Below are positions 1-15,011 of a stretch of DNA of 26,082 nucleotides, in pieces. The stretch is from a virus: the IMG/VR virus record IMGVR_UViG_3300028569_002822, positions 1 to 26,082 of that record; one strand, given 5' to 3'. The notes under the pieces were generated by a model that did not search any database, was not told the DNA's origin, and saw only the letters and a program-made list of their open reading frames with translations. The stretch's first letter is position 1. Every line of letters begins with the position of its first letter. The position numbers were made by a program, and so were the translations under genes.

Positions 1-1623
1 TTCCCGCTTGGCGGCCAGGAGCGCGATCTGTTGGTCCACCTCTGAGGTGGTGGAATGCCCGACGCCCGCAAGCGTCGTCGATTTCTGGTCGGCTGCGGAG
101 AGGTCGCTGAACGCGGCATCCGCAATCTTCTTGTCGAGGGCCTCCTTGTTTTTGCCCAGCTCGCCGCTGAGCGATGCCGCTTTTCTCCGGCTTTCTTCCA
201 GTGCCGCCGCACGATCCTTCTCGGCCTGCCGCTGGGCCATGACCTCGGGGGTGATTCCGGCCATGCTCGCCTTCATCTGCTCCAAGAGGGCGATGCGCTG
301 TCGGTATTCTCCCGCAATGTCGTTGCGCTGCTCGGGCGTGAGATTCTCGAACTGGTCGGCGAGCCCGGCGAGCGATTCCTTGGCGGCTTCGATGTCCTGG
401 TCGATGCGCTTGCCCACATCGACTTTGTCAGCCTCGCTCGACACGGTTTTCATTTCCGCCGCGATGGAGGTCACGGCCTTGAGCGTGTCGCTGCTCGCCG
501 CCCCCGCCGCACGGGTCGCTTCCTTCGCCTGCTGGATTTTTCCGATAACCACCTCGATGGCTGCCGCGATCCCCGCGATCAGGATGCCGATCCCGGTCGA
601 GATGAGGGCACCCTTGATGGCCAGTGCTGCCCCGCGTGCCGCCATGCCGATCCCGGAAAATGCGGTGCGTGCTGCCGCGCCCACGCTCGAAAAGTTCATC
701 GTGGCAAGGGCCACGCGGACCTGAGCGAACGCACGAGTCGCCGCCGGGCCGATGTTGCTCATGGCACTCACCACCTTCGTGTCGAAACCTGCGCGGTAGA
801 GGGCCATGGCGGCCACTACCCCGACAATTTGTGGGATCATGCCCGAAAGCACCTGGCCGAACCGGATGGCTGCCGCTGCGATTTCACCCAGGGATTCGCC
901 AAGGTTGGTGAGATCGGTCGCGTTGAGGGCATTGCCGATTTCCTCCAGCGCTGGGGCGATGGCCGCAGTGAACCCGGCTGCAAGCTGCTGGCCTTTCAGA
1001 TTCGCGGCCCCGAGTGCGTCCGATATGGAATCAAATTTTGACGCGTTCTCCTGCATCGTGTCCGCAAGCCCGCCAACCTGCTGACGGGCGACGTCCATTG
1101 CCGAGCCATCAAGGAAAATCGCCTGCAACGCGGCCCCCTTGCGCCCGAAGATCCCCATGGCAGTTGCCGCCCGCTCGGTCGTGTCAGGAATCGCCGCAAG
1201 CGCAGCCGATACCCGCGCAAATTGTTCGGCCGGGTTGAGCGACTGGAGTTCCGCCATCGAGATCCCGAGGGCAGAAAGAGCCTTGTTCGTCGGCTCACCG
1301 TCCTCGTTGATCCCGCCGAGAGCCTTCTGGAGCCGGTTGATCGCCGGACCGACTTGCTCGGCATCCATGCCCGCGTTGGCGAATGCTTGGCGCAACACGA
1401 CAAGATCGCCCACCGCGATCCCGGTCTGGGCGCTCATGTCCGTGAGCTGCCCGCCCAGGTCGAGGGATTCTTTGATTGCGGAGAAAGCGCTCGCGAATGG
1501 TGCAAGGGCCGCGTTCGCCGCGGCAAATGCTCCCTGAACAGAAATTGTCGCCGCAGCTACACGAGCAAGCGCGGCATCAATGCCGGAAATATCGAGACGA
1601 AATCTGGCTGTGATGTCGGCCAC
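1..1623 (-). CDS. tail tape measure protein, partial (C-terminus off window)
   Basis: The reading frame is open from a GTG at 1623 to the left edge, 541 codons, so the C-terminal part is missing. The sequence is alanine-rich with long helices. It has hydrophobic stretches typical of tape measure proteins, one around residues 270-285 (IPQIVGVVAAMALY) and one around residues 325-345 (ALISTGIGILIAGIAAAIEVVI), followed by charged coiled coil. Family knowledge: these proteins set tail length and are ejected with DNA. An in-frame TGA lies 6 codons before the GTG, so the start cannot be much further upstream. TTGACA lies exactly 13 bases before the GTG. It follows the minor tail gene by 19 bases, the expected place after the tail chaperone. 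Function is inferred from architecture and position. Confidence 0.85.
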   Translation of the reverse strand, partial: MADITARFRLDISGIDAALARVAAATISVQGAFAAANAALAPFASAFSAIKESLDLGGQLTDMSAQTGIAVGDLVVLRQAFANAGMDAEQVGPAINRLQKALGGINEDGEPTNKALSALGISMAELQSLNPAEQFARVSAALAAIPDTTERAATAMGIFGRKGAALQAIFLDGSAMDVARQQVGGLADTMQENASKFDSISDALGAANLKGQQLAAGFTAAIAPALEEIGNALNATDLTNLGESLGEIAAAAIRFGQVLSGMIPQIVGVVAAMALYRAGFDTKVVSAMSNIGPAATRAFAQVRVALATMNFSSVGAAARTAFSGIGMAARGAALAIKGALISTGIGILIAGIAAAIEVVIGKIQQAKEATRAAGAASSDTLKAVTSIAAEMKTVSSEADKVDVGKRIDQDIEAAKESLAGLADQFENLTPEQRNDIAGEYRQRIALLEQMKASMAGITPEVMAQRQAEKDRAAALEESRRKAASLSGELGKNKEALDKKIADAAFSDLSAADQKSTTLAGVGHSTTSEVDQQIALLAAKRE

Positions 1624-1642
1624 GCCGCAGGGGGCGTGTCAA

Positions 1643-2338
1643 TCAGGCTCTAAATCCCGCCTTCCTCGCCGCCTCGCGCACGGCAAAGCTTTCCAACCTC
1701 CTCACCATAGCCGCCGCCTGGGAATCGATGGCGCTTTGAACCCGCCGCTCGATGTCGAGTGCGGGCGAGCCCTTGACCTTGTTGGTGGCGACAACCTCAA
1801 TCGCTACGGCATTTGATTTGATCTTGCCCTCACCGGGAGCGGAATGCCTCGAGACCCATGCCGGGACCGGCACGCCTAGTTTTGTGGCAGCCGCTTTCCA
1901 CCCCGATGCCAGGAATCCAACCATCTTCTTTTTTGAAGCGATGTAGCGTTTCAAGTCGGACGCCTTGATTTTGATTCGCGGATTGAGTTTCCGGTTCACC
2001 CGCCCGGTTGGTGAGCGGTTGGCTTTGTGGATGGCGGCGGGAGATGCGTTTGATGCATCCTCCACGAACATGCCTGCCGCCCGAAGAATGTTTGCGGGAG
2101 CCTTGGGCGGGACGTAGGGCTGCATGAGTTTGAGGATATCGCGCTCGACTTTAGCCTCGCCCCGCTTCTTAGCCCCTTGCCCCGTTGCGTTTTTGCCGCC
2201 GGGCGGTGTCCAGTCGATGATTTTCCGCAGCACGCCCCGTGCCTGTTCCCGCAGGACCACCTCAGCCGCACGTTTGCCATTGCGCCGGAATTCCTTCAGG
2301 GCTGCATCAAACTTTGTCTTATCGAGTTCAAGGCTCAT
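1643..2338 (-). CDS. minor tail / tail-completion-like protein
   Basis: 231 aa, basic, rich in lysine and arginine. The N-terminal half (residues 5-50) is a charged helix followed by a WTPPGGKNATGQGAKKRGE segment. Such N-terminal helix plus W-TPxxTG segments occur in HK97 gp10-like and lambda Z-like proteins, but I do not recognise a specific family with certainty. The ATG overlaps the end of the frameshifted chaperone reading frame by 11 bases. It lies between the tail chaperone and the tape measure, a slot often used by minor tail genes. TTGACC occurs upstream of its start with 19 bases between, longer than the usual 13. Confidence 0.6.
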   Translation of the reverse strand: MSLELDKTKFDAALKEFRRNGKRAAEVVLREQARGVLRKIIDWTPPGGKNATGQGAKKRGEAKVERDILKLMQPYVPPKAPANILRAAGMFVEDASNASPAAIHKANRSPTGRVNRKLNPRIKIKASDLKRYIASKKKMVGFLASGWKAAATKLGVPVPAWVSRHSAPGEGKIKSNAVAIEVVATNKVKGSPALDIERRVQSAIDSQAAAMVRRLESFAVREAARKAGFRA

Positions 2339-2932
2339 CGTCTTCGATCTGGAGCGCGGTCAACTGAGTGATCTGCTCCTCGACCGGAGCCGACGGAGCG
2401 ACCGTCCATGCACCGGATTGCCAGAGCGCGCAATGCTGGTAGGCGAGTGCCCGCCAGAGCGGGAGTTCCCACAAAATGAAGGCTTCCGGCCAGCCGGTCT
2501 TTTCGGCCAGCGTGAATACGCGCGAGGCGATCCACGCTGGCGCTAGGAGTTTGGGGGCGCGTCCTTGTCTTCCGTGCCAGGGCGCGGGATCACGTCCACG
2601 GACTGCGAGGCGGCAGCAGTGAGCCCAGCCTCGACCTCTCGAATGATCGCCGGGATGTCGGCAACCGGGATCGCCTGGGAAAAGCGGAATACCTCGGCGT
2701 GGAAGACATCCGAAGCCGAATATGCTGCCCGCAGAACCACTTCCAGTGGAGCACCGTGAATGTAGGCGTATTCGAGCGCGGCCGTGAGGTGATCCGGAGC
2801 CGTATTGCCCGGAGGCACGACAAATGCGTTTCCGGTGCGGTGGAGGATCGCATACGAACCGCTGGAAAGCGGACGGAGCTTGAGTCCGGCGGGTTCGGCG
2901 GCTGGACGGAGGAAATCGGTGGCGTCGTTCAT
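2328..2932 (-). CDS. tail assembly chaperone GT-type fusion made by -1 frameshift
   Basis: This is the predicted long product of the chaperone pair. It uses the start at 2932, reads to the slippery heptamer CCCAAAC (2555-2549), slips back one base and continues to TGA at 2330-2328, giving about 201 aa. The -1 frame extension begins PKLLAPAWIASRVFTLAEKT and is open all the way to its stop. It contains a Trp/Leu-rich segment (GWPEAFILWELPLWRALAY) that reads like a protein and not like a shadow frame. In lambda the equivalent gpG and gpGT bridge tail tube and tape measure proteins. The gene sits in the same position here, just before the minor tail and tape measure genes. Frameshifting is inferred from sequence, not measured. 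Confidence 0.8.
2506..2555 (-). promoter_or_regulatory. programmed -1 ribosomal frameshift element
   Basis: Reading the minus strand, the zero frame is GCG CCC CCA AAC TCC TAG. It contains the X XXY YYZ heptamer C CCA AAC at 2555-2549. Seven bases later begins a perfect 9-base-pair stem, GCCAGCGTG (2541-2533) with CACGCTGGC (2514-2506), around an 18-base loop. Heptamer, 5-9 base spacer and a stable downstream stem are the standard parts of a -1 frameshift signal. The zero-frame stop lies inside the spacer. Confidence 0.85.
2543..2932 (-). CDS. tail assembly chaperone, short G-type product
   Basis: 129 aa, ending at TAG 2545-2543 right after the slippery site. Its ATG overlaps the TGA of the upstream gene (ATGA), so the two are translationally coupled. 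The body is a mixed alpha/beta protein with helices around residues 48-70 (DHLTAALEYAYIHGAPLEVVLRAAY) and 78-106. Length and position fit the short product of G/GT tail chaperone pairs. Sequence similarity to any named family is not obvious. The assignment rests on the frameshift cassette at its 3' end and on gene order. Confidence 0.75.
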   Translation of the reverse strand: MNDATDFLRPAAEPAGLKLRPLSSGSYAILHRTGNAFVVPPGNTAPDHLTAALEYAYIHGAPLEVVLRAAYSASDVFHAEVFRFSQAIPVADIPAIIREVEAGLTAAASQSVDVIPRPGTEDKDAPPNS

Positions 2933-3423
2933 TTGAGGTAGGAGAGAAGTTTCTGGCGTTTGTCTTCGGGAAGATCGGCCGGTAGCGTGACTTGCCGGTT
3001 GCCCCGGCGCACGAGGGCGGCAGGCTTGAGCGTGCGGATCCGGTCGCGGAGCTGGCTATGGGCGCGGAATGCCCAGCGAAGAAATGAAATCGGGTGGTCC
3101 GGATTGGCCAGGCACCATTCCTCGCTCTCGAACCGGCGGCGGAACTCGGGGAATTCGATTTCCTCATCGGGGGATTTGAAGATCCCTCGCGAGCCGCCAT
3201 CGATGAACCACTCGACCCGGCGCAGCGGGCCGTTCTCGGTTTGCTCGACCGTGTCGCGGAACCCGCCAGGTTCGACCAGCTTGAACCCGCTCGTCAGCGC
3301 GGCGGCGATGAGCTGGGTGTTGGGACTCGTGAGCGGGTTGTTGGCGAAGCGCAGTTTGCCCTCGGGCGTCTGCTGGGCTTTCGCCTCCTCCGCAATCCAG
3401 TGGAATGATTGGCCGTTTGTCAT
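2929..3423 (-). CDS. phage tail-region protein of unknown function
   Basis: 164 aa from ATG 3423. The frame stays open further upstream, but that part would overlap the preceding tail-tube-like gene, so 3423 is preferred. The leader is CA-rich (CAACAACCAACCG) without a clear Shine-Dalgarno sequence. The protein has an N-terminal polar segment, a central acidic stretch (SPDEEIEFPEFRRRFESEEW, about residues 83-102) and a basic C-terminus. It lies between the tail tube and chaperone genes and ends in an ATGA overlap with the chaperone, so it is probably a structural or assembly protein. I recognise no family. Confidence 0.65.
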   Translation of the reverse strand: MTNGQSFHWIAEEAKAQQTPEGKLRFANNPLTSPNTQLIAAALTSGFKLVEPGGFRDTVEQTENGPLRRVEWFIDGGSRGIFKSPDEEIEFPEFRRRFESEEWCLANPDHPISFLRWAFRAHSQLRDRIRTLKPAALVRRGNRQVTLPADLPEDKRQKLLSYLK

Positions 3424-3452
3424 GATGGGATCGGTTGGTTGTTGAAAACGGA

Positions 3453-3767
3453 TCAGGTGGCCGACGGGTAGCCTTGGCCGGAATACTCCCATTCCTCCCA
3501 GTCGTCGTTCTTGGTGGATTCCTTCACGGTGGTCACGATGACCTTGCCGCTCACGCCCGTCGGGGCAGTCGCCGCCTTGAGCGCCACCGGGCACGCAGCG
3601 CCCTTGCCGCGCACGCTGAATTCAAACGTGGGATCCTGGACGGCGGCGTTCGAATAGTTGCCGCTCCGGTCGGCGAGGATTTTGACGTCGCCTTTGCTCG
3701 AAACCTCCGCCGATTGAGCGGTGGCCTCGGTGACGAGTGTGATGCCGATGTCAGTGGGTGAAGCCAT
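3453..3767 (-). CDS. tail tube-like protein, copy 2
   Basis: 104 aa. It is a visible paralogue of the next gene upstream. Shared landmarks in the same order are E.SS, a FEFSVRGKG / VTLKGKG strand, a KVIVTT / AVITSA strand and an acidic C-terminal motif (STKNDDWEEWEYSGQGYPS versus SESNDDFPDYEITYQKFAS). The beta-rich pattern and the position before the tail chaperone suggest a small tail tube or head-tail connector protein. Five bases separate it from copy 1. Which of the two builds the tube cannot be told from sequence. Confidence 0.65.
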   Translation of the reverse strand: MASPTDIGITLVTEATAQSAEVSSKGDVKILADRSGNYSNAAVQDPTFEFSVRGKGAACPVALKAATAPTGVSGKVIVTTVKESTKNDDWEEWEYSGQGYPSAT

Positions 3768-3772
3768 AAAAA

Positions 3773-4081
3773 TCAGGTGGATGCAAACTTCTGGTAAGTG
3801 ATCTCGTAGTCGGGGAAGTCGTCGTTGCTCTCGGACGCCTTCGCGGAGGTGATGACGGCAGTGGCTCCGATGCCCGTGTTCCTTGAAACCGATGGCGCAT
3901 ACGTGCCCTTGCCTTTGAGCGTGACCGTGGTGGTGACAACGCCTTTGGGCACGGCCAACTTGGTGACTCCCGTGGCGTCCTTGCAGGTCGCGACCTCGAC
4001 GCTCTTTTCCTGCGAGGATTCCTGAAGGTATCCGGCAGCCGGGTCGGTCACGCCAAAGAGGTTGATCGTCGCAAAGGCCAT
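3773..4081 (-). CDS. tail tube-like protein, copy 1
   Basis: 102 aa, beginning MAFATINLFGVTDPAAGYLQ. It is beta-strand rich with few Cys or Trp residues, and resembles the adjacent 104 aa gene along its whole length, indicating tandem duplication followed by divergence. Its ATG follows the upstream stop by one base (TGACATG). In lambda-like maps this slot holds the major tail protein; the short length is unusual for that role, so one of the pair may be an accessory or decoration protein. Confidence 0.65.
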   Translation of the reverse strand: MAFATINLFGVTDPAAGYLQESSQEKSVEVATCKDATGVTKLAVPKGVVTTTVTLKGKGTYAPSVSRNTGIGATAVITSAKASESNDDFPDYEITYQKFAST

Positions 4082-4082
4082 G

Positions 4083-4301
4083 TCAGGGGAGTTCGCAGCC
4101 GGTCAGTTTCAGATCGAACTGGATGATGTAGGAGCGTTGAACCGTGTCACCGGAGATCGTCTGCGAGCGGGCAACAGAAAATCCCTTCGGGCGGGTTTCT
4201 TTGGGCGATGCCTCAAACCGGGCGAGCGCCTGCTCGCAGAAATCGTAAGCGGAGCGGCGAAGTTCTGGTTGGGCTTTCGGGTCGGTGGTATCGGCGGCCA
4301 T
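4083..4301 (-). CDS. small phage structural-region protein
   Basis: 72 aa, starting MAADTTDPKAQPELRRSAYD. The C-terminal half forms apparent beta strands (VQRSYIIQFDLKLTGCELP). TTGACA lies exactly 13 bases upstream of the ATG and contains the stop of the preceding gene. It lies between a tail-terminator-like gene and the tail tube-like genes, so a tail completion role is plausible. No family recognised. Confidence 0.55.
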   Translation of the reverse strand: MAADTTDPKAQPELRRSAYDFCEQALARFEASPKETRPKGFSVARSQTISGDTVQRSYIIQFDLKLTGCELP

Positions 4302-4316
4302 GCACCGGAGGACGTG

Positions 4317-4718
4317 TCAACCGAGACGGATGCCGGCGACCAGTTCGATGCTCGAACGCCAAGTATTCTCGAGGATATCTTCGCTCTGAGATCGGACATG
4401 GAACCCGTGGAGTGAAACGCTGCCGGCACCGGCATCAAACACGACTTTCCCCTCGGTTGGATCGAGAAGCGAAAGCGCCAGCATCCCCGCCGCCTCCCGG
4501 TGCTGGGCCTCGCCCATGTCGAAAGCCGGTGTGCCGAGATGCACTTTCACAGTCGCCCGGTAAAGCGGTCCCGCCACATGCTCGCATTCGGAGCACTGGA
4601 CGATCACCATCTGGGCGTCCGAGGGGTGAGGTTTCGAACTCGTGGCCTCGCGCACGTGAACGCTCGGCATCGCAGCCTGGATCACCGCCACGAATCCCTT
4701 TTCGATGTCGGCATTCAT
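4317..4718 (-). CDS. tail terminator / minor tail-like protein
   Basis: 133 aa: an N-terminal helix (MNADIEKGFVAVIQAAMP), then alternating strands (QMVIVQCSE, ATVKVHLGTPAF) and a helix (EAQHREAAGMLALSLL), ending in strands. This layout resembles lambda gpU or HK97 gp10-type tail terminators, which cap the finished tail tube. The match is by layout and position only. The ATG overlaps the stop of the upstream gene (ATGA). Confidence 0.55.
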   Translation of the reverse strand: MNADIEKGFVAVIQAAMPSVHVREATSSKPHPSDAQMVIVQCSECEHVAGPLYRATVKVHLGTPAFDMGEAQHREAAGMLALSLLDPTEGKVVFDAGAGSVSLHGFHVRSQSEDILENTWRSSIELVAGIRLG

Positions 4719-5020
4719 TCGACCGGCTCCACGGTGAGGGTGACGAGAGGATGTGGCGGACGGTTCGACACCCGCACGACTCGGAAGGTTTCCCCGGCGT
4801 ATGTGAGCGTCTCCCCGATCGGCGGAATCGCCGGAATGTCGTTACGTAACAACTTTACCGTGAAATTTCCGGAGGCGGTAAATCCGCCCGCTCCGAGTTC
4901 AACTGTTTCCTGCGGTTCGGAAATCAGGGCCGGCAGAATACGCCCGGCGATTGCGACTTCTTTGCCGAACTCGGAAAAAATCCCGGCCACATCAGCGGCC
5001 ATTTCATCGTGGATGGACAT
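4715..5020 (-). CDS. head completion / head-tail joining-like protein
   Basis: 101 aa. It has an N-terminal helix (MSIHDEMAADVAGIFSEFG) and a beta-rich C-terminus ending GETLTYAGETFRVVRVSNRPPHPLVTLTVEPVE. That pattern (short helix, then an SH3-like barrel with a DG.tYrV.. hairpin) is common in gpFII and HK97 gp9-like joining proteins. TTGACA is exactly 13 bases before the ATG. The gene carries one copy of the 16-base palindrome at 4838-4853, read here as L-L-R-N-D. Confidence 0.6.
   Translation of the reverse strand: MSIHDEMAADVAGIFSEFGKEVAIAGRILPALISEPQETVELGAGGFTASGNFTVKLLRNDIPAIPPIGETLTYAGETFRVVRVSNRPPHPLVTLTVEPVE
4838..4853 (-). repeat. dispersed 16-base palindrome, copy A
   Basis: On the minus strand this reads GTTGTTACGTAACGAC, identical to copies B and C. 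It lies inside the head-completion-like gene and encodes L-L-R-N-D in that frame. Confidence 0.8.
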
Positions 5021-5044
5021 GCCCCGCCGGGCGTGTCAACGGTT

Positions 5045-5554
5045 CTACCGGCTCAAGGAAAAGGAACGAACGATTTCACGGGGGCGGGCAATGATGATCT
5101 GGTGCGCCTGCACGTCGGAATCCTTGAGGACTTTCCAAAACTTTTCGGCATCTTTATTGGCCTCAAGAAGATGTTGGTCGCTGGTCAGAAGAATCTCGCA
5201 TCCCTTCAATGCCGCCTCGGCCAACAAAGTGGCATCGTTCTCTTCCTCGTGCGGGATGATGTTTTTCATCCTCAATTTCAATCCAATTTCACCGGCTATC
5301 CCTCGTTCCACCGCAGACATGGCAAGAGGAGTATATCCACGGGCCAAAAGCTGCATGAGTGCCCCTGTGGCGAGCGTTCGGCGCAAGCTGGTGGCACCAT
5401 TTGCCGACAGCCAGGCGAGTTCCTGAGTAACAGTTTCCGTGGCGAAAAACTGGACCCGGGCAATTCGCTTCCGGATCACTGACAACGCATCAAGAACATC
5501 CGCATCCCCATTCTCCTCGTCCATCAGGACGTTGGCATCAACGGCGATGCGCAA
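5045..5554 (-). CDS. PIN-domain ribonuclease toxin-like protein
   Basis: 169 aa from a TTG at 5554, chosen because the protein then begins MRIAVDANVLMD and a GGAG sequence lies just upstream. PIN signatures are the first acidic residue in VDANVLMD (residue 6), an internal Glu (VTQELAWL, about residue 45), an acidic cluster EENDATLLAEAAL (about residues 101-113) and the last acidic residue in ILLTSDQHLLEA (about residue 125). PIN domains are metal-dependent RNases, often VapC-type toxins. It follows a small gene overlapping by 17 bases that could be its antitoxin. It sits inside the structural operon behind a terminator. Confidence 0.75.
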   Translation of the reverse strand: MRIAVDANVLMDEENGDADVLDALSVIRKRIARVQFFATETVTQELAWLSANGATSLRRTLATGALMQLLARGYTPLAMSAVERGIAGEIGLKLRMKNIIPHEEENDATLLAEAALKGCEILLTSDQHLLEANKDAEKFWKVLKDSDVQAHQIIIARPREIVRSFSLSR

Positions 5555-5714
5555 CAGCTTTCTCCGCTCCTGTCTGGTTGTGGTAGATCAGTCGCATGGC
5601 CGCAGCGGTAAGTTCCATCCGGGATTCATCGGAAATCTTGTTGCACTGCTTACGGGCTTCTGCGGCGAATTTGGTTCCCGTGGTCGCAGGTGTCTTTTTC
5701 ACGGTGGCGCTCAT
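5538..5714 (-). CDS. small basic protein, candidate antitoxin of the PIN gene
   Basis: 58 aa from ATG 5714 (MSATVKKTPATTGTKFAAEA); an in-frame ATG at 5729 would add five residues. It has a helical C-terminal half (ESRMELTAAAMRLIYHNQTG) and overlaps the PIN start by 17 bases, as antitoxin-toxin pairs often do. No DNA-binding fold is clear, so the antitoxin role is inferred from context. Confidence 0.5.
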   Translation of the reverse strand: MSATVKKTPATTGTKFAAEARKQCNKISDESRMELTAAAMRLIYHNQTGAEKAVAHRR

Positions 5715-5780
5715 GCCGGTAACATCCATCAATCCCGAGCTTCGGTCAAGGCGATGGCGGAGATTTTCACGGCAATCGCT

Positions 5781-5816
5781 AAACACAAAACCCCCGCACC
5801 ATTGCTGATGCGGGGG
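5781..5816 (-). terminator. Rho-independent terminator after the coat gene
   Basis: On the minus strand an 8-bp GC stem CCCCCGCA / TGCGGGGG (5816-5809 and 5798-5791) encloses a 10-base loop. It is followed at once by TTTTGTGTTT (5790-5781). It lies 21 bases after the coat protein stop and separates it from the PIN pair and the downstream joining genes. Confidence 0.85.
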
Positions 5817-5836
5817 CTTGCAACCGAACCAACCAA

Positions 5837-6727: not shown

Positions 6728-6733
6728 GGGATG

Positions 6734-7357
6734 TTACTTGTTGGATTGTGAGAGGATGAGGGCCTTCTGCTTGTCATTGAGGTTCTGCCAGAAGGCGGTC
6801 TGCGCGCCTGGGTCGGTGATCGCCCGGAACTGCTCCAGAAGGCTGGCCGTCTGCTGCTCGCCTTTGGGGGTCACATTGGCCGGAGCCGAAGTGCCGGTTT
6901 CGGCGATGATCTGGGCGGCGCGGAGCGAGGCCCGCTTTTCAAGATCCTGCTCAGCGGCTTCCAGGGCGGCGTTGCGGGCTTTGATTTCCTTCAGACTGGC
7001 GTCGAGAGCGGCACTGCGGACCCCTGCTTCGTTGAAACTGAGTTCGAGCGCGGCATTACGTGCCTCAAGATCCCTGAGCTGGCCGGCGAGCACGTCCTTG
7101 TCGCTGGTGAGCGAAGCATTTGTGGTGTGGGCGGCATCAAGGTCTGCACGAAGTTGGGCGAGAGATTCCGCCTCGATCTGGCGCTCGGATTCGAGAACCT
7201 CCAGGCGGGCTTGCAGGCCGGTCGCGCTGGCGGTGGCCTCGGTGAATTTGGTGTTGGCTTCGCTCAGGAGTGAATCCCGGGCCGCAGCGTCAGCTTCCAA
7301 GCGGGTGATTTGCTCACGGGCTTGGGCGAGTTCGTTTTCGATCGATGGTGCGCTCAT
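6734..7357 (-). CDS. nested in-frame scaffold protein (lambda Nu3-like)
   Basis: An internal ATG at 7357 would give 207 aa, starting MSAPSIENELAQAREQITRL. This is precisely the coiled-coil scaffold portion of the protease gene. The ATG is preceded by GGTTGACACGG with 14 bases between TTGACA and ATG, the motif and spacing seen before many separate late genes here. Lambda Nu3 is known to be made from an internal start in gene C. Independent expression here is inferred. Confidence 0.7.
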   Translation of the reverse strand: MSAPSIENELAQAREQITRLEADAAARDSLLSEANTKFTEATASATGLQARLEVLESERQIEAESLAQLRADLDAAHTTNASLTSDKDVLAGQLRDLEARNAALELSFNEAGVRSAALDASLKEIKARNAALEAAEQDLEKRASLRAAQIIAETGTSAPANVTPKGEQQTASLLEQFRAITDPGAQTAFWQNLNDKQKALILSQSNK

Positions 7358-8179
7358 TGCACCGGAACCCGTGTCAACCGAACGAACATGAAGTTTGCGC
7401 AACCGGGACAGCGCTTCCGCCCGGCCCGCCACCATTCCTGCCAGGTTGAAGCGCATGGCGCGGCGGGCCGAAAACGTCTGCCCTTCCATCGCCTCGTCCG
7501 GGATCTTGCGACCGCGGGCAAGCACGGCGGCATGAAAATCCCCGGCGGTTTCCTCGACCTCCGATTGGAGCCAAGCCCGCTGGTCGTCGGTAAGGCTCGT
7601 GCCGGGAGTGCCAGCGCTTTTGAATTTGCCCGCCGCAAAGACTTCCACCTTCAGTCCCGCCTGCTCAAACGCGGCCGAGGAATCCACGACCGGGAGGATC
7701 ACACCGATGGATCCGATCCGTGCGCTCGGGGTGGCATAGATCGCATCCGCCTGGCTCGCGACCCAGTACGCGGCCGAACACATCTGGCCGGCACTGAACG
7801 CATAGACGTATTTTGTCTTGGAGGCGTCAGCAACTGCCTGGGCAAGTTCCGGTGTGCCGTTGACCGATCCGCCAGGGGAATCGATGTCGAGGAAGATCGC
7901 CTCGATGTCGGGACGGGCAGCCGCCTCGGCCACCGCATTGATGAGTTCCCCGGTGTCGCATGCGCCCAAGATGATCCGGTCAAAAATGTCCGGGTTGCGG
8001 AGCATCGGGCCGGTTATGGCGACAACTCCCACGCCGTCTTCCACGGAAAGGCAGGGCGAGATCGGGCGGTCAGGAAGGGCCGGTGAGTTGTCGAAGAACG
8101 ATTTCGTGGCGGCGACCATCGCCCCGAGAGCTTCGGGCGCGATCAACCATGGCTGTTTTTGAAGGAGTGTGAGGTTCAC
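6734..8179 (-). CDS. S49-family head maturation protease with C-terminal scaffold domain
   Basis: 481 aa from GTG 8179. Residues about 40-265 are an S49/ClpP-fold serine protease. Visible parts are the strand DIEAIFLDIDSPGGSVNGTP, the nucleophile region SAGQMCSAAYWVASQAD (Ser after Cys), the ARIGSIGVILPV strand and the candidate general-base Lys in FAAGKFKSAGTPG. Residues about 275-425 are long coiled coil rich in Ala, Glu, Leu and Arg. The C-terminus (LLEQFRAITDPGAQTAFWQNLNDKQK) is helical. This is the lambda C layout: the protease cleaves scaffold and portal proteins in the prohead. TTGACA lies 13 bases before the GTG. It follows the portal gene across a gap that holds a gene on the other strand. 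Confidence 0.88.
   Translation of the reverse strand: MNLTLLQKQPWLIAPEALGAMVAATKSFFDNSPALPDRPISPCLSVEDGVGVVAITGPMLRNPDIFDRIILGACDTGELINAVAEAAARPDIEAIFLDIDSPGGSVNGTPELAQAVADASKTKYVYAFSAGQMCSAAYWVASQADAIYATPSARIGSIGVILPVVDSSAAFEQAGLKVEVFAAGKFKSAGTPGTSLTDDQRAWLQSEVEETAGDFHAAVLARGRKIPDEAMEGQTFSARRAMRFNLAGMVAGRAEALSRLRKLHVRSVDTGSGAMSAPSIENELAQAREQITRLEADAAARDSLLSEANTKFTEATASATGLQARLEVLESERQIEAESLAQLRADLDAAHTTNASLTSDKDVLAGQLRDLEARNAALELSFNEAGVRSAALDASLKEIKARNAALEAAEQDLEKRASLRAAQIIAETGTSAPANVTPKGEQQTASLLEQFRAITDPGAQTAFWQNLNDKQKALILSQSNK
7358..7377 (-). promoter_or_regulatory. internal TTGACA start-associated motif before the scaffold ATG
   Basis: TTGACA at 7377-7372 is in frame within the protease gene (V-D-T) and precedes ATG 7357 by 14 bases. 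It matches the arrangement at 1637, 4315, 5034, 8193, 10117, 10648, 13085 and 13419. Confidence 0.55.
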
Positions 8180-8218
8180 TCCCGTTGCGCGATGTCAACG
8201 AGGTGCTACGTTCAGGTT

Positions 8219-8401
8219 ATGGATTGCCTTATTCCTTCAGAGGTTCAGTGCCCGCACTGCTGGGAGAAATTCACAGTCGAGGTGGATACCACGCAGGGCA
8301 ACTACGAGACGGTGGAAGATTGCAGCGTGTGTTGCATCCCGATGACCCTGCGGATTGTCTGCCACTCAGGCGAAGTAACGTCCATCGACGCAGCTCCTTA
8401 A
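8219..8401 (+). CDS. small Cys-rich CPXCG-type zinc-binding protein
   Basis: 60 aa from ATG 8219 (MDCLIPSEVQCPHCWEKF). It has a CPHC pair near residues 11-14 and DCSVCC near residues 35-40, with strands between (FTVEVDTTQGNYETVED). This matches the general plan of the CPXCG cysteine-rich family, which is bacterial and of unknown function. An in-frame ATG further upstream overlaps the protease start and is less likely. It is the only plus-strand gene inside the late operon and ends tail-to-tail with the portal gene, overlapping it by four bases. It looks like a moron gene. Confidence 0.7.
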   Translation: MDCLIPSEVQCPHCWEKFTVEVDTTQGNYETVEDCSVCCIPMTLRIVCHSGEVTSIDAAP

Positions 8402-9855
8402 CCCGGCTGCCTCATTCCCGAAAGTGCCGGCGGGTCTTGGATTTCTCCAACGGCAGGAGTTGCCGATGTTCCGCCGCTTGGCCGCCACAGCATCTCAAGC
8501 GGGATCTGGTATTCGGCTGCAAGTTCCACCAGGAACCTCGCGTTGCGGGCACGCACTCGCATCTCCTCTTCAAAATCGAGACCCAATTCGCCATAGCTTT
8601 GCGAAATCGTTTTGAGCCCCATTTCCACATCTGCCCGGTTCTGCTGGGCCTCGCGTCCAGCATCCACGGTCACACGCCTGGGAGTGGTTGAGGAAATTTT
8701 CCACCATTGTGGTTGAGGAGCTAGTTCGCCCCTCGCAATGGCATCGCCGATCACATACGCCCATACCGGCTCGATCAGCCGATTGATGAGGATCAACTGA
8801 CGATACGAGAACCGTCTGTCCGCTTTGGCCACGACCAGTCTCACTCCGGCCCCTCCAATGCTGCTGGAGTCGGCAGCGAATTCGTATGGCAACACGCCGA
8901 GCGCAGAGTCCCTGCGCAGGTGCTGAAGGAACCCGGTAAACGTGGGCGATGGGCGGTTCGACTGGAAGCTGTCCAAGGATTCGTCGGGTTTGAGAGCGAC
9001 CAATTTCCCGCCTATGATTTTCTGGAGCTGGGCGGCGTCGCTCGCCTGAGGTTGATTGGCTTGTGCGCCGATGGAAAAGTCTCCGGTGTCCTCGACTTCC
9101 CCACGCGCCGTTTTGAGGACCCGTGCCACGTCTGCGTTGTCCTTCACCGCATGTTTTTCAAGCGCGAGGAGCTCCATTTCATCGAGCATGTGATTGATCG
9201 AATGCTGGATCGTCGGTGCATTGCGCACCGCACTCACTGACTCGGGCTCAAAAACGTGGAGCATCGAAGCCGCCGGGATGTCGCGGGGACCGGCATCTTC
9301 AATCAGGCGGTAGAATGACGGCGAGCCGTCCGATGCGAGCCCGACTCCATCGCATGTTTCTTCGGAATCGTCTCCGATCCGGTGTGTTTCGATGAGCTGG
9401 ATCTTCGCGAATCCGCTGCGGTCGCGGGTTTTCAAGACGAAGAACTCGCCGTCCACATCCATTCCCCGGCAGACGAGTGACTGGCATTCCTCGAAGGAAA
9501 ACCGATTTGTCACTTCGCACTGCGCCGACCACCGGCGGAAGATTTCCTCAGCTCGCCGATTCCAGTCGGGATCCGTCGATTGCGCCTGGGGACGTATGCC
9601 GTCGCCCGTGGAATAGATCGCCATGTTGGAGACCATCTCGCGCACGAACCCGGAATTGCGGTGGAGATAGCGGGATCGCCGCACGAGTTCCGTCCTGACT
9701 CCAGGCGAAAGGTCGAGCTTGGCATCGCGGGGAGCGGAGCCGGGCACGCGTCCGCGGGCGGGCGACCAGTTCGCCGCATCGTAGGGAGACGCCCAGGCTT
9801 TCGGCAGGAATGCGGCCGGGACAACGAACCGGGCGAGTTTTGGGATCAGCTTCAT
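8398..9855 (-). CDS. portal protein (lambda B type)
   Basis: 485 aa. It starts MKLIPKLARFVVPAAFLPKAW and continues with YDAANWSPARGRVPGSAPRDAKL. The RSRYLHRNSGFVREMVSNMAIYSTGDGIRPQA segment at residues about 60-92 is typical of Phage_portal_2 proteins: many Arg residues, then VxxxVxxxIGxGI. The mid-section has the DGEFFVLKTRD strand and a conserved HVFEPESVSAVRN segment. The C-terminal part carries YELGLDFEE and a variable tail. The portal forms the dodecameric DNA channel at the unique capsid vertex. Its ATG overlaps the stop of the connector gene (ATGA), and TTGACT lies upstream with a shorter, 10-base spacing. Confidence 0.88.
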   Translation of the reverse strand: MKLIPKLARFVVPAAFLPKAWASPYDAANWSPARGRVPGSAPRDAKLDLSPGVRTELVRRSRYLHRNSGFVREMVSNMAIYSTGDGIRPQAQSTDPDWNRRAEEIFRRWSAQCEVTNRFSFEECQSLVCRGMDVDGEFFVLKTRDRSGFAKIQLIETHRIGDDSEETCDGVGLASDGSPSFYRLIEDAGPRDIPAASMLHVFEPESVSAVRNAPTIQHSINHMLDEMELLALEKHAVKDNADVARVLKTARGEVEDTGDFSIGAQANQPQASDAAQLQKIIGGKLVALKPDESLDSFQSNRPSPTFTGFLQHLRRDSALGVLPYEFAADSSSIGGAGVRLVVAKADRRFSYRQLILINRLIEPVWAYVIGDAIARGELAPQPQWWKISSTTPRRVTVDAGREAQQNRADVEMGLKTISQSYGELGLDFEEEMRVRARNARFLVELAAEYQIPLEMLWRPSGGTSATPAVGEIQDPPALSGMRQPG

Positions 9856-10103
9856 CGCGGGATAAAGTCAACGGTGGATTGGACGACACGCCGCCCGCAT
9901 CCGTAGTCGTCAGGGGCAAGTTTGCGCAGCGCATCCTGGCAGGCCGCGATCACGACATGGATTTCGTCCAACCGGCGCTTGGTCACCGCCGACCCGGAAT
10001 CCGTCCATGAGGCGAGCGTTTTCTCCAGTTCCGCCTTGTGGATCGCGAAGATTTTCTCCACCTCGGCACGGGTGAACCCGATGGAATAGTCGATGGCAGC
10101 CAT
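9852..10103 (-). CDS. gpW-like head-tail connector
   Basis: 83 aa, mostly two helices (FTRAEVEKIFAIHKAELEKTLASW and KRRLDEIHVVIAACQDALRKL) with a short strand between. Size, helical hairpin and position between terminase and portal all match lambda gpW, which stabilises packaged DNA and joins head to tail. TTGACA lies 13 bases before the ATG and contains the stop of the upstream gene. Confidence 0.7.
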   Translation of the reverse strand: MAAIDYSIGFTRAEVEKIFAIHKAELEKTLASWTDSGSAVTKRRLDEIHVVIAACQDALRKLAPDDYGCGRRVVQSTVDFIPR

Positions 10104-10118
10104 GCCGGACGGCGGGTG

Positions 10119-10634
10119 TCAACGGAGGAGCCTGATCAATGAGCGAACCAGACTGGCCGACCGACGCTTGCGCCACACGCCATCACCCGCGTTGCTGTCG
10201 CGCAAGCCAGCGCTGTTCGTGTTGCCCTCGATACATTCGATCGATTCCCGTGAAATCTGGTCCTTCACGACCAACCCGATGTGGGAGAAGTCAAAAACGA
10301 CGAGATCCCCGGCCTTCGCGAGCGATTTCTTGTTCAGGACGGCAAGTCCCTTTTCCTTCGCCCACCGCTCGAAGTCGAAAGCGCCAGCCGTCTTTGGCCG
10401 CCAGTTTTCGATCTCCTTGTTGTTACGTAACGACAATTTCGCCAAAACCTCCGGCGACTTCAGCCATTCGCGCAGGATCCAGCAGATGAAGGCGGCGCAC
10501 CACGGCCATGGGGCGGGTTTGAGCCATGTGGCGGATTGGTATTCGACGATGCGGGGTCCGCGGTTGTTGCCGCCTTCTTCGTGTGTGCCCACCTCGTGGG
10601 TGGCGATTTCCAGGAGTCGTTTGATCGGGTCCAT
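10119..10634 (-). CDS. CHAP/NlpC-like peptidoglycan hydrolase (endolysin)
   Basis: 171 aa. The catalytic Cys sits in PWPWCAAFICWILRE (about residue 46), the His in VVFDFSHIGLVVKDQ (about residue 117), and a polar residue in IECIEGNTNSAG follows. This is the Cys-His-polar order of CHAP/papain-like amidases that cut cell-wall peptides. There is no signal peptide or membrane segment, so it would need a holin, not seen here. It stands between terminase and connector genes, where lambda has only gpW. TTGACG is 13 bases before the ATG. The gene contains palindrome copy B. Confidence 0.8.
   Translation of the reverse strand: MDPIKRLLEIATHEVGTHEEGGNNRGPRIVEYQSATWLKPAPWPWCAAFICWILREWLKSPEVLAKLSLRNNKEIENWRPKTAGAFDFERWAKEKGLAVLNKKSLAKAGDLVVFDFSHIGLVVKDQISRESIECIEGNTNSAGLRDSNAGDGVWRKRRSASLVRSLIRLLR
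10419..10434 (+). repeat. dispersed 16-base palindrome, copy B
   Basis: GTTGTTACGTAACGAC on the plus strand, inside the endolysin gene. It is read on the minus strand as L-S-L-R-N-N. It is identical to copies A and C. Confidence 0.8.
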
Positions 10635-10664
10635 GAACCCGACGCGCCGTCAACCGAAAGGGTG

Positions 10665-12488
10665 TCATTCCGGCTGACTCCCTTGATCTTCTGTAACGGG
10701 ATCTGCGGCGGAAAACTCCCGTCCGACCAGCTTGAGCATGACGACGGCCACGACCTGCATTGCTTCGCAGTCCCAGAGATGGTTCGGGCGAGAACCGATC
10801 TGTTTCCAGAGCCACTTACCTCCGTCCTTGACCCGGTGTTCACTTTCCATCTGGGCGAGGTAGTCGTCGTCGATGTCGTCGGGCACTTCCCATGTCGCGC
10901 CTTTCTCCGGGCGTTGGTTCCGCCGGAGCCGGGCGAGGATGTCTTTGCAGTTGAGATTCGACCAGTAGAAGACCGAGCAGCTTTTGTTGTGGCCGAGGAC
11001 CACCTTGCGGCGGGGCGAGTAAAACCGGTGGACGGATTTTCCATCCCGGCCCCGGTGAACGAATGTTGGGCGGCGGTCGCCAATGAGGGCCGTCCAGCCG
11101 TATTCCGAGCATTGCCGATAGACTTCGTAGGCGGCGTGGCCGGCATCAAGGAACACGAGGTTCGGGTGGACCGTAAACCGTTCCTGCAAGGTGCGGATGT
11201 CCTCGAACGTGAGGATTCTCTCGTTCCAGATAAGCCGGGAGGAACCGTTCGCGCTCCAGGCACGAACCACGGCGAACAGGTGATCCATCTGCACGTCCAC
11301 GGTGAGCACGCGCAGGGGAGCCGATATCGCGGCCGGGTCATACGGGCCGGGAATGATGCGCCCGGTTTTGTCGAATGCCGCCTCTTCGTCCCATAGCTCG
11401 CCCTTCCGGTATCCGGTGCGTTCGATTTCCAGTTTGTAGTCCTCGCTGGTTTCTCGCCACGGGATCGCGAGCCGCTTCTGGTAAAATTGTTGGAGGAGAG
11501 AAAAATCACCCTGCCGGGAAACCGCTTTCGCCCGCAGGTAAAGCTCGGCGAGCCGTCCCCAGCTCATCGCGCATAGGGAATTCCAATGGAATCCGGCGTT
11601 CTCGGGAGATGCGTGCAGGTTCTGCGGGACGAATTTGCCGGTCGCATTCAGCTCCCGCCGGACCCTGTCCGTATCCTCGAAGTAGTGGTTGCAGCCATCG
11701 CAGCGCAGCGAGGCGGTCTGGCGCACTTCGCCGTAATCCCATTCGTAGTCGTCCCGGCGGGCGGATTTGCTCCATTCGACGTTCTCCCACTTGAATGGCT
11801 GGCGGGTGCCGCATTTCGGGCAGGCGAACGTCCATTCCCGCTGGTCGGTCGTCTCGAATTTTCGGGAGGTATCGTCGCCTTCCTCCCCGGCCTGGCTCAT
11901 GAACAGGCATTTGCCGAGCCAACCGAATGCGGTGACTCGCGCTTCGGCTTCGGCCATGTGGCCGGGCGGGTACCGCCAGCATTCATCGGCGATGAGATAT
12001 CGGATCGACCGTCGCTGAAGGTTCGTCTTGTTGTGTGCCCCAAGAATCCAGAGCGTCATGCCGTTAGAAAACTGGATCGCGGCGGTTTTCTTTTTGTGCC
12101 GATCGCGGGGGTAGAGCGCACGCACCGGGGCGCATTCATCGAACAGCTTCTGGAGGCGGGATTCGCTTTGGTCTCGGGCGTCCTCGTCGGTCTGGTCAAG
12201 CCAGAGCGCGGGACCGGGAAGATTTGCGATAATGTAGGAGATGCCGACCTCGCCCACGCTCGTCTTTCCGCACTGGATGGCGGCGATGATCGAAACGATG
12301 CGGACGCTTGGATCTACCAATGCCTCCAGCGGCTCGCGCAGCCATGGTGAGTGGTCCGAGCGGAACCTGCCTGGCACCGGTGAATACGGGATCGAGGCAA
12401 TGTGTTCCTCCGCCCATGCCCACGGGGGACGGCGGTCCGGCGGCCGCCAGACATTCCTCCAGATTTTATCCAGCTTGTTCGCCGTCAT
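10665..12488 (-). CDS. terminase large subunit (GpA family)
   Basis: 607 aa from ATG 12488 (MTANKLDKIWRNVW); the frame is open upstream but that part overlaps the small subunit. N-terminal packaging ATPase: Walker A-like IIAAIQCGKTSVGE (about residue 80), Walker B IRYLIADECWR (about residue 157), and a coupling-like SQAGEEGDD. A zinc-ribbon follows (CPKCG near residue 210, CDGC near residue 250). The C-terminal nuclease has an acidic strand start in LRVLTVDVQMDHLFAVV and VFLDAGHAAYEVYRQC. Together with the small subunit it cuts and packages DNA. The start overlaps the small-subunit end by 23 bases. Confidence 0.9.
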   Translation of the reverse strand: MTANKLDKIWRNVWRPPDRRPPWAWAEEHIASIPYSPVPGRFRSDHSPWLREPLEALVDPSVRIVSIIAAIQCGKTSVGEVGISYIIANLPGPALWLDQTDEDARDQSESRLQKLFDECAPVRALYPRDRHKKKTAAIQFSNGMTLWILGAHNKTNLQRRSIRYLIADECWRYPPGHMAEAEARVTAFGWLGKCLFMSQAGEEGDDTSRKFETTDQREWTFACPKCGTRQPFKWENVEWSKSARRDDYEWDYGEVRQTASLRCDGCNHYFEDTDRVRRELNATGKFVPQNLHASPENAGFHWNSLCAMSWGRLAELYLRAKAVSRQGDFSLLQQFYQKRLAIPWRETSEDYKLEIERTGYRKGELWDEEAAFDKTGRIIPGPYDPAAISAPLRVLTVDVQMDHLFAVVRAWSANGSSRLIWNERILTFEDIRTLQERFTVHPNLVFLDAGHAAYEVYRQCSEYGWTALIGDRRPTFVHRGRDGKSVHRFYSPRRKVVLGHNKSCSVFYWSNLNCKDILARLRRNQRPEKGATWEVPDDIDDDYLAQMESEHRVKDGGKWLWKQIGSRPNHLWDCEAMQVVAVVMLKLVGREFSAADPVTEDQGSQPE

Positions 12489-13071
12489 GGAGGATTGCCG
12501 CGAATTCATCCACGGCGATGGAAAGTTCTTTGCGGATCGCAATCGCATCGAGGCCGGAGAGGATCGGCGGGATTTCCTGTTCAAGCCGCTTGCGCAGGAG
12601 CGCCACAGCCTGCCCGACGTGGTAGGCCCACCGGGTCTTCACGTCATCGAGGAGCACGTATTCGCCCTGCTTCACCTGGAGCCGGAACTCGCGCTCCATC
12701 ACCTCGGCCAGCAGCTTCCGGGCTTTGAGCGACGACTCCACATCCGACACGTCCTCTTCGTTTTTGAGCCCGCGCTGTTTGACGAACTCCCGCCAGACAG
12801 CCACTTCGTGCGTGCCGTTGGCATTCGCCTCCGGTGCGCCTTCGAGTTTCCGCCAGGAATGGATCGCCTGACGCGTCACCCCGAGCGCCTCGGCCAGTTC
12901 GTTGTAGTTCGCCGCCAGCGTGATCCCGCTTGCCACCGACCCGGCCGCCATCGCCTGGAGCATATTGCGCTCGGAACGCGTGAGCTTCCCGCCTCCCTGA
13001 ACCCGCTGGATCAGGTTGGAGAAATCACGGTTGAGAAGTTTGCGCGCTACCTCGGGTGGAATCGGTTCCAT
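12466..13071 (-). CDS. terminase small subunit-like DNA-binding protein
   Basis: 201 aa. A helix-turn-helix is seen at residues about 55-75 (NYNELAEALGVTRQAIHSWRKLEG), preceded by a basic N-terminus and followed by long helices (ESSLKARKLLAEVMEREFRLQVKQGEYV). The latter resembles the region after the HTH in phage small terminases. It sits at the head of the leftward operon and overlaps the large subunit. The ATG has TTGACT exactly 13 bases upstream. Confidence 0.8.
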   Translation of the reverse strand: MEPIPPEVARKLLNRDFSNLIQRVQGGGKLTRSERNMLQAMAAGSVASGITLAANYNELAEALGVTRQAIHSWRKLEGAPEANANGTHEVAVWREFVKQRGLKNEEDVSDVESSLKARKLLAEVMEREFRLQVKQGEYVLLDDVKTRWAYHVGQAVALLRKRLEQEIPPILSGLDAIAIRKELSIAVDEFAAILHDGEQAG

Positions 13072-13223
13072 CCACGCGGGATGGAGTCAACCGCCCACAA
13101 GTTCGGCAAATCGCTTGTCCGGGAAGTGGCCTTTGACCGCAGAAAACGGCGTTCTTGACATGCGCACAACGAACTCGTTTTGCAACTCGCAGGGCGTTGT
13201 TGGTCTGATGGAAATTCTATTTG

Positions 13224-13391: not shown

Positions 13392-13407
13392 GTTGTTACG
13401 TAACGAC
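13392..13407 (+). repeat. dispersed 16-base palindrome, copy C (non-coding)
   Basis: GTTGTTACGTAACGAC, identical to copies A and B, located 30 bases before the excisionase-like start codon. Confidence 0.8.
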
Positions 13408-13437
13408 CGGAGCGCAAGTTGACACGGCGGAAGGGGG

Positions 13438-14277: not shown

Positions 14278-14288
14278 GGCGGCAATCC

Positions 14289-14303
14289 TACGCGAGACAC
14301 GCA
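14289..14303. repeat. TACGC-type 15-base near-palindrome, copy 1
   Basis: TACGCGAGACACGCA in the divergent XRE/ParB promoter region, overlapping the likely XRE -10. Related copies are at 17870, 21115 and 24499. Confidence 0.5.
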
Positions 14304-14308
14304 CCCGA

Positions 14309-14326
14309 CTGTCAAGCGGTTGACAG
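14309..14326. promoter_or_regulatory. operator-like palindrome between XRE and ParB-like genes
   Basis: CTGTCAAGCGGTTGACAG: two perfect 7-base half-sites around a 4-base spacer. Each half contains a TTGACA -35 box, one per strand. A third near half-site CTGTGACAG lies at 14338-14346, over the ParB start. The layout fits an XRE repressor binding site controlling both divergent promoters. Confidence 0.7.
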
Positions 14327-14339
14327 CGGTGGCGAGGCT

Positions 14340-15011
14340 GTGACAGTCCACTGCGCCCATAACCAGCTCGTTGATCCCCGGAAACTCAAACCGAACCCGG
14401 TCAACCCGAACCGGCACAGCGCCCACCAGATCCAACTCCTTGCCGCGATCATCCAAGAACAGGGGTGGCGGTCGCCGATCACGGTCAGCAAACGGAGCGG
14501 GCTGATCGTCCGCGGCCACGGCCGGCTTGAAGCAGCATTGCTCATCGGCTGCGACACCGTGCCGGTGGACATCCAGGATTATGAGTCGGATGCGGCGGAA
14601 CTGGCCGACCTGCTCGCCGACAACCGGCTCTCTGAACTCGCGGAACTCGACGAGGACGATCTCAAGCGGGTCGTAGATAAATTGCGGGAGAGCGATCCCA
14701 GTTTCGATATCGAACTCACCGGTTTCATGGAGGACGAAATTGCCAAGTTGTTTGCCGAGGCAGATCCCGCCGAAGACCTCGAAACGATTCCGCGCATGGA
14801 ATGCCAGGCATTCGAGCACCATGACTACCTCGTGTTCATGTTCCACGACTTGAGGGACTGGATGCTCGCGCTCCAGCTCATCGGCGTGAAGGAAGTGGAT
14901 TATTCAATCACCCGCAAAACCAAGAAAATCGGCATCGGCCGTGTCCTCCATGGAAAAAGACTCATCGAACTCGCGCAAAAAGCGGCAACCGGATCTCCAA
15001 CCGCAGGGTAG
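14340..15011 (+). CDS. ParB-like nuclease-domain protein
   Basis: 223 aa from GTG 14340. The ParB/sulfiredoxin-type domain occupies the first about 90 residues: LKPNPVNPNRHSAHQIQLLAAIIQEQGW, then ITVSKRSGLIVRGHGRLEAALLIGC with the GHGR motif, then TVPVDIQDYESDAAELADLLADNRL. Phage proteins of this type usually partner with DNA methylases or other base-modifying enzymes. An acidic middle region follows, and then a C-terminal domain (MECQAFEHHDYLVFMFHDLRDWMLALQLIGV). TTGACA is 14 bases before the GTG. The start inside the operator region is chosen because the ORF upstream overlaps the XRE gene. The stop overlaps the first bases of the tRNA. Confidence 0.8.
   Translation: MTVHCAHNQLVDPRKLKPNPVNPNRHSAHQIQLLAAIIQEQGWRSPITVSKRSGLIVRGHGRLEAALLIGCDTVPVDIQDYESDAAELADLLADNRLSELAELDEDDLKRVVDKLRESDPSFDIELTGFMEDEIAKLFAEADPAEDLETIPRMECQAFEHHDYLVFMFHDLRDWMLALQLIGVKEVDYSITRKTKKIGIGRVLHGKRLIELAQKAATGSPTAG

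Follow-up and report, generated by a model that had tools for sequence, protein, structure and literature searches.

A TTGAC word 14 to 18 nucleotides upstream of start codons in a lineage of tailed phages of Verrucomicrobiota and its probable role in translation initiation

The window and its TTGAC sites

The stretch of DNA considered here, IMG/VR virus record IMGVR_UViG_3300028569_002822 (26,082 bases; G000 in our sets, hereafter the window), is a fragment of a tailed phage in which the short word TTGAC recurs at a nearly constant distance upstream of start codons. According to PHROGs matches, the leftward genes (positions 1-13071) encode the tape measure, major head protein, protease, portal, endolysin and both terminase subunits. 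The rightward genes include those for HTH_17, ParB-like and AAA proteins, a DNA ligase and RadC. Spacing is given as d, the number of bases that separate the start codon from the C of TTGAC; a first-pass annotation of the window had counted TTGACN followed by 13 bases, which corresponds to d=14. Its spacings were all recovered: d=14 at starts 1623, 4301, 5020, 8179, 10103, 10634 and 13071 (minus strand) and 13438 (plus strand), d=15 at 7357 and 14340, d=11 at 9855 and d=20 at 2338. The sites and one predicted product are listed below, with the frequency of the motif in the corresponding gene family where available.

1638..1642, minus: TTGAC, d=14 before GTG 1623, tape measure gene (PHROG tape measure matches)
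2359..2363, minus: TTGAC, d=20 before ATG 2338; C after the word, outside the family range, probably chance
4316..4320, minus: TTGAC, d=14 before ATG 4301, 72 aa; cluster 35, motif in 5/5
5035..5039, minus: TTGAC, d=14 before ATG 5020, 101 aa, head closure/head-tail attachment; 102-aa family, motif in 15/18
5745..5749, minus: TTGAC, d=15 before ATG 5729, 63 aa, weakly MazE-like; C before and after the word, membership unlikely
6734..7357, minus: predicted nested scaffold protein, 207 aa, from the internal motif start
7373..7377, minus: TTGAC, d=15 before ATG 7357, an in-frame start within the protease gene; nested coiled-coil scaffold
8194..8198, minus: TTGAC, d=14 before GTG 8179, head maturation protease
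9867..9871, minus: TTGAC, d=11 before ATG 9855, portal; outside 14-18, probably chance or decayed
10118..10122, minus: TTGAC, d=14 before ATG 10103, 83 aa, "gpW-like" (label from size and position); motif in 15/21
10649..10653, minus: TTGAC, d=14 before ATG 10634, endolysin; motif in 7/7
13086..13090, minus: TTGAC, d=14 before ATG 13071, terminase small subunit; motif in 18/21
13419..13423, plus: TTGAC, d=14 before ATG 13438, HTH_17 regulator/excisionase-like; motif in 3/5
14320..14324, plus: TTGAC, d=15 before GTG 14340, ParB-like; motif in 15/18

Over the whole window TTGAC is not in excess (42 occurrences vs 48.4 expected). At called starts it stands at d 13-18 in 9/43 cases, whereas 20,000 draws of random positions gave a mean of 0.22 and never more than 4; d=14 alone accounts for 7 cases vs 0.036 expected. 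Among uncalled ATG and GTG codons the figure is 12/1554, and these 12 include 1623 and 7357, since the first gene runs off the window and the second start lies within a called gene. Starts were taken not from annotation but from our own coding-score caller, which draws on codon composition, length and the type of start codon and ignores upstream sequence; a longest-start caller, which missed true starts, placed the word at 4/35 window genes and was therefore replaced. The sites at 9855 and 2338, which the first-pass annotation had counted as cases of the motif, are probably chance or decayed occurrences, because the spacings of the family span 14-18 and 1/21 members of the portal family have the motif. 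The 5729 site is probably not a member because the C before and the C after the word break the flank rule of the family.

Association with start codons in related phages

Terminase relatives of the window comprised 443 viral stretches, of which the best 80 were used, and 46 genome loci. These loci are nearly all labelled Verrucomicrobiota, and the terminase relatives sit in prophages of that phylum; one locus, L082, is labelled Bacteroidales and is perhaps a misbinned contig. In an unbiased scan of 79 related viral loci the top upstream 5-mer was TTGAC, present at 206/932 genes vs 11.6 expected, a count that relatedness inflates. The enrichment at fixed spacing in related phages, the lack of which the first-pass annotation had named as a refutation, is thus present, and the association of TTGAC with starts is real and goes beyond the window. 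At d 13-18 the word preceded 138/528 genes of the viral set, 140/627 of the genome loci and 56/225 of relatives gathered with the terminase of L117, a set in which some contigs are identical to those of the viral set.

The spacing has clear limits. In 1825 upstream regions there was no case at d12 or d13, followed by 231 at d14, 113 at d15, 34 at d16, 96 at d17, 32 at d18 and 1 at d19. As relatedness inflates P values, upstream regions were dereplicated in later counts unless stated otherwise; the counts for d14 to d18 then became 99, 52, 20, 28 and 9, with few occurrences elsewhere (10 at d11, 7 at d8 and 6 at d19-21). The family consensus is G-TTGAC-A-C with a C-rich spacer, and C is avoided in the flanks (base before the word G 0.60 and C 0.03, base after it A 0.69 and C 0.01, in 208 dereplicated cases).

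The word itself is strict. Exact TTGAC stood at d14-18 in 287/1187 dereplicated genes, and in the remaining 900 genes none of the 15 one-letter variants was clearly enriched at these positions; the highest counts were those of CTGAC (7 vs 2.3, the largest ratio), TTGCC (10 vs 5.2) and TTCAC (8 vs 4.8), the others being at or below background. Among ortholog pairs with diverged flanks, in which one gene may occur in several pairs, the word was kept at d14-18 in 280/338 (149 with the same spacing and 131 with a changed one) and lost in 58, whereas control pentamers were kept in 18-22/338. Closer pairs kept it in 287/308. The sequence upstream of the motif showed little conservation. Five bases carry too little information to define about ten sites in 40 kb, so that a second anchor is needed, and this would be the start codon at its fixed range.

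Distribution among phages and hosts

Among those sampled, the motif is restricted to a single lineage of Verrucomicrobiota tailed phages and prophages. It is still present at 42% terminase identity (L239-L242, 4/20) and nearly gone at 27-31% identity (3/56, all in L247). In the clade of Verrucomicrobia phage P8625 it was seen at 5/226 starts, with 0/42 in P8625 itself, and five phages with distant terminases (ep3, Dulem virus 34, AcaML1, phiHAP-1 and CRP-823) together gave 1/181.

A host-wide signal can be rejected, as the motif is rare in host genes and concentrated in prophages. It preceded 2/615 genes in seven host genomes (unevenly sampled, with 34 to 170 genes each), and its strict form gave 0 to 6 matches in each of eight whole host genomes, several of them on prophage contigs. 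Matches to GTTGACAC-N12-ATG were found in 51/145 genomes of the phylum and never exceeded three per genome. Within a single Puniceicoccaceae genome, G003, two prophage stretches had the motif at 8/29 (L111) and 7/31 (L115) genes vs 1/139 chromosomal genes. A prophage stretch of Chthoniobacter flavus Ellin428, L122, had it at 6/30 genes.

Genes that carry the motif

Genes were assigned as late or early from their function and strand. The carriers are mainly structural genes, and the families differ widely: the motif is frequent in those of the terminase small subunit (TerS, 18/21), gpW-like protein (15/21), ParB-like protein (15/18), 102-aa head closure protein (15/18) and endolysin (7/7), and scarce in those of the terminase large subunit (TerL, 1/22), portal (1/21) and major capsid protein (0/20). 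The motif is also commoner at late starts that no upstream stop abuts. In TerL-containing late runs (22 records, the window and its near twin G011 both among them; not dereplicated), the motif preceded 103/203 genes with a gap of at least 11 nt to the upstream stop vs 21/186 with a shorter gap, and 36/37 at gaps of 15-19 nt. A dereplicated count that included flanking and early genes gave 76/131 at gaps of 11-20 vs 36/352 at gaps of -8 to 10. The TerS-TerL and gpW-portal pairs overlap in the window, and therefore the unmarked partner of each can be translationally coupled.

The leader of the major capsid gene, ccaacaagtaacatccc-ATG (window 6728-6760, minus strand), is G-poor and A/C-rich, a composition found in most relatives, and has neither TTGAC nor a Shine-Dalgarno sequence; it constitutes a second non-Shine-Dalgarno leader type.

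An internal start in the protease gene

The first-pass annotation had listed 7357 among the gene starts. The motif stands there as described, but not before a separate gene: the site lies within the protease open reading frame (ORF) 6734-8179 and marks a start in the same frame. The arrangement recurs in relatives. Exactly one in-frame internal ATG with TTGAC was found in 13/14 fused protease-scaffold genes (d=15 in 12 and d=18 in one), at codons 255-288 and mostly at 275; the fused gene of G005p had no internal motif start, and those of the window and G011 also hold one out-of-frame chance case. Seven other records have the C-terminal, coiled-coil-like part as a short scaffold-like ORF of its own, preceded by the motif in 7/7, and in G002p no scaffold-like ORF was clustered. 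The word is written GTT-GAC in 13/13 fused genes, even though GTT makes up 14.9% of Val codons. An origin of the motif at gene junctions or operon boundaries is hard to uphold, because here it marks an in-frame start within a gene.

In phage lambda the scaffold protein Nu3 is likewise initiated in frame within the gene of protease C. The fused protease-scaffold genes show the same arrangement, with the difference that their internal start has the TTGAC element.

Relation to Shine-Dalgarno sequences and hairpins

To our knowledge, bacterial start signals are either graded, as are Shine-Dalgarno sequences and A/U-rich leaders, or absent, as in leaderless mRNA. The TTGAC element resembles a Shine-Dalgarno sequence in being anchored upstream of the start codon, and differs from it in sequence and distance, in being invariant rather than graded, in being nearly exclusive with it and in having no complement at the 16S rRNA 3' end. 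A GGAGG-like Shine-Dalgarno sequence occurred in 2/158 genes with the motif vs 83/569 others (20 lineage records plus P8625, not dereplicated). The 16S 3' ends of three hosts are ordinary (CCTCC), and GTCAA, the complement for which the first-pass annotation had suggested a search, is missing from their last ~50 bases, the anti-Shine-Dalgarno region. The motif can thus be rejected as a Shine-Dalgarno site given its other sequence, its distance of 14-18 rather than ~5-10 nt and the lack of a partner at the 16S 3' end, in agreement with what that annotation had stated.

Shine-Dalgarno sequences were infrequent in the hosts, at 37/615 genes vs 13/615 in a control stretch. These low counts fit the case of Akkermansia, which the available portion of PMC10783764 places among Shine-Dalgarno-scarce organisms with a conserved CCUCC. 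Several early phage families have GGAGG, among them the HTH family of 21805-22395 (6/12) and the 22583 family (7/10).

The raw sequence logo, in which C-richness gives way to G-richness between motif and start, suggested a hairpin joining the two. Column covariation between them was weak, and a half-swap test, itself weak given this gradient, gave |z| of at most 1.6 at all five spacings. These tests do not support the hairpin, although the leaders pair slightly more than shuffled controls do (see below).

A candidate translation-start signal

Taken from sequence comparison, it is likely that UUGAC at 14-18 nt upstream serves as a strict, Shine-Dalgarno-independent translation-start signal of late mRNA, read by a factor that the phage encodes or recruits. 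Of the three options in the first-pass annotation this one fits best, because of the start-anchored spacing, the occurrence in phages only, the exclusion of Shine-Dalgarno sequences and the internal scaffold start. A DNA-level regulator site is less likely, and a boundary for modular recombination can be rejected, since only 5-7 nt are shared, the spacing varies and a conserved site lies within a gene.

More specifically, a dedicated protein bound to the 30S subunit may read UUGAC as the phage's own late-gene start code, nested scaffold included, in hosts poor in Shine-Dalgarno sequences; this we put forward tentatively, as quite possible rather than probable. The pentamer would lie at the upstream end of the stretch covered by the initiating 30S subunit, where the protein, phage-encoded or a recruited host factor, would recognise it and place or stabilise the ribosome, with the start codon as second anchor. 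Reading by a protein is suggested by the strictness of the word, which lacks wobble variants, by the missing partner at the 16S end and by the need for a second anchor. Genes that start at or overlap the previous stop would instead depend on translational coupling, the major capsid gene on its G-poor, A/C-rich leader and some early genes on an ordinary GGAGG. In this way the heads of late blocks could be raised or timed independently of Shine-Dalgarno translation.

Several observations weigh against a translation-start signal of late mRNA. Of the genes in late runs whose start is free, about half have no motif (100/203), and the major capsid family, expected to be the strongest gene, is unmarked (0/20). 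Conversely, the motif is found at genes that are not obviously late, namely those of the ParB-like (15/18) and HTH_17 (3/5) families, and in 4/9 members of a recombinase-like family, so labelled from reading its sequence. In one prophage, G003p, the late genes for the portal and the N-terminal part of the protease also use Shine-Dalgarno sequences. Ribosome sites are usually open, that is, unpaired; the opposite was found here, as pairing in the leader from motif to start slightly exceeded that of shuffled controls (unpaired 0.388 vs 0.408, p=2e-4), with 0.420 vs 0.441 for the word itself (p=0.06). As for a reading protein, Ribosomal_S21, S1 and IF3_C domains were found in 0/13 records (possibly fragments; G020 left out), and the early genes common to the records include no clear RNA-binding candidate.

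Two rival explanations invoke DNA-level regulation and mRNA processing. A DNA-level late element, either a promoter element for a phage sigma factor or activator or a stoperator-like operator ahead of each late block, is unlikely. The sites are oriented with transcription and lie ahead of block heads, and a promoter for each free gene is conceivable. An early gene at 21805-22395 (plus strand) has weak similarity to sigma-70 region 4 (E=0.0033, 17.5 bits, below the 25.7-bit cut-off); its family recurs in 12/22 records and is a candidate late transcription regulator. A sigma-70 -35 box can be rejected, as a -10 hexamer would be expected about 17 nt after TTGACA and ahead of the start codon, and no excess of TANNNT was found downstream of the motif; the earlier judgement that the word lies too close to the start for such a box is thereby supported. 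The P8625 clade offers a contrast. There, TTGAC lies 28-38 nt upstream of the start in 24/252 genes (L254-L292, L154), 19/24 of these sites have a -10 matching at four of six positions or better (no shuffled control; the clade is AT-richer), the leaders are probably very short, and the word has the appearance of a promoter. The little conservation upstream of the motif also counts against a DNA-level element, and sharp anchoring to the start codon and an in-frame internal start are not expected of one. The stoperators of L5 and other Cluster A phages, at which the phage repressor binds and silences transcription, are likewise asymmetric sites in short intergenic regions, and the reverse complement of their consensus contains CTTGACA. 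We know of no tight spacing of stoperators to start codons. They act in transcription, as stated in the part of PMC3203893 at hand. The other rival, rather improbable, is mRNA processing: an endoribonuclease of phage or host would cleave late mRNA at UUGAC and leave short leaders, the new 5' end lying 14-18 nt ahead of AUG, and initiation would take place from such ends. That the pentamer is strict, with no variant clearly tolerated, suits a nuclease, and T4 RegB is a precedent, since it cleaves at GGAG in leaders and inactivates early mRNAs, mostly at Shine-Dalgarno sites (PMC3014915, in the text available). In both cases the leaders of phage mRNA contain a short, strict word, but that of RegB is tied to early shut-off, whereas TTGAC marks late starts and is not a Shine-Dalgarno sequence. 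Moreover, a nuclease needs no fixed distance to AUG, and the 191 TTGAC words left in the 577 tested genes would be cleaved. These 191 represent a mild depletion in coding regions of motif phages (230 expected), with TTGAT and TTGCC above expectation; in the signal-free host Chthoniobacter flavus (L134-L143) coding TTGAC is more strongly depleted, at 40 vs 106 expected from synonymous shuffles. Avoidance in coding regions is thus weak and not specific as support.

Pairing of UUGAC with a ribosomal, host or phage RNA, as a displaced analogue of the Shine-Dalgarno interaction, is very improbable. The mRNA exit side of the 30S subunit is near the position of the motif, and GTCAA does occur in 16S rRNA near position 1190 in all three hosts and also near 1400 in G003; these positions are not at the exit side. 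The 16S 3' ends offer no GTCAA, as described above, and no enrichment was seen for TTGAT and TTGGC, the variants that wobble pairing would tolerate. Finally, it is hardly credible that the word is a by-product of the previous gene's TGA stop, of common junction ancestry or of a recombination boundary. In 59/269 dereplicated cases the upstream stop is the TGA of the word itself, and the remaining 210 have no such overlap (in 115 the stop precedes the motif, 58 are first in their run and in 37 the motif lies within the upstream ORF), so the earlier assertion that stop-codon overlap cannot explain the motif holds. Furthermore, the word is kept across diverged flanks and within a gene.

Comparison with Start-Associated Sequences

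The closest known system is that of the Start-Associated Sequences (SAS) of Cluster K mycobacteriophages. In the portion of PMC3203893 available to us, SAS are described as 13 bp sequences, GGGATAGGAGCCC, with AGGAG within them, typically 3-7 bp from the start and located in the non-structural half of the genome, with unknown function; their role is still called unproven in what could be consulted of PMC12699233 and PMC11373665. From these three sources, both elements are short, asymmetric, phage-specific, mostly in one orientation and essentially missing from the host; they stand just ahead of the start codons of some genes, at times overlapping the stop of the gene before. The phage-specific, host-absent and upstream-of-start character is borne out here by 2/615 host genes vs 287/1187 phage and prophage genes. 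By contrast, the TTGAC element has five invariant bases, lies 14-18 nt away, has no Shine-Dalgarno sequence and marks mainly structural genes. It is therefore not a member of SAS, from which it departs in sequence (GGGATAGGAGCCC, AGGAG core), distance and gene set. Among the literature matches listed, judged by titles and abstract openings, there was no account of a TTGAC start motif.

If UUGAC is a translation-start signal, host ribosomes can be made to follow a second start code imposed by phages, and the present lineage would provide a new system in which the role of Start-Associated Sequences becomes directly testable. The motif would also allow gene starts to be corrected and nested genes to be revealed in these phages, and it might be used as an orthogonal translation switch in Verrucomicrobiota.

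Other features of the window

Between the capsid and head closure genes of the late operon, the region 5045-5729 (minus strand) encodes a PIN-like and MazE-like pair, possibly a toxin-antitoxin pair, from weak matches (E 0.016 and 0.033, both below cut-off). The gene at 15124-15831 (plus strand) matches a TET-associated glycosyltransferase at the cut-off (27.5 bits) and may be involved in DNA base modification. The perfect palindrome GTTACGTAAC occurs three times (4841-4850, 10422-10431 and 13395-13404), with a fourth copy with one mismatch at 18159, as compared with 0.12 expected in all for at most one mismatch. It was also found in the twin G011 and in L003, and in none of ten other related records and prophage stretches scanned, and thus looks like an operator of the window's subgroup.

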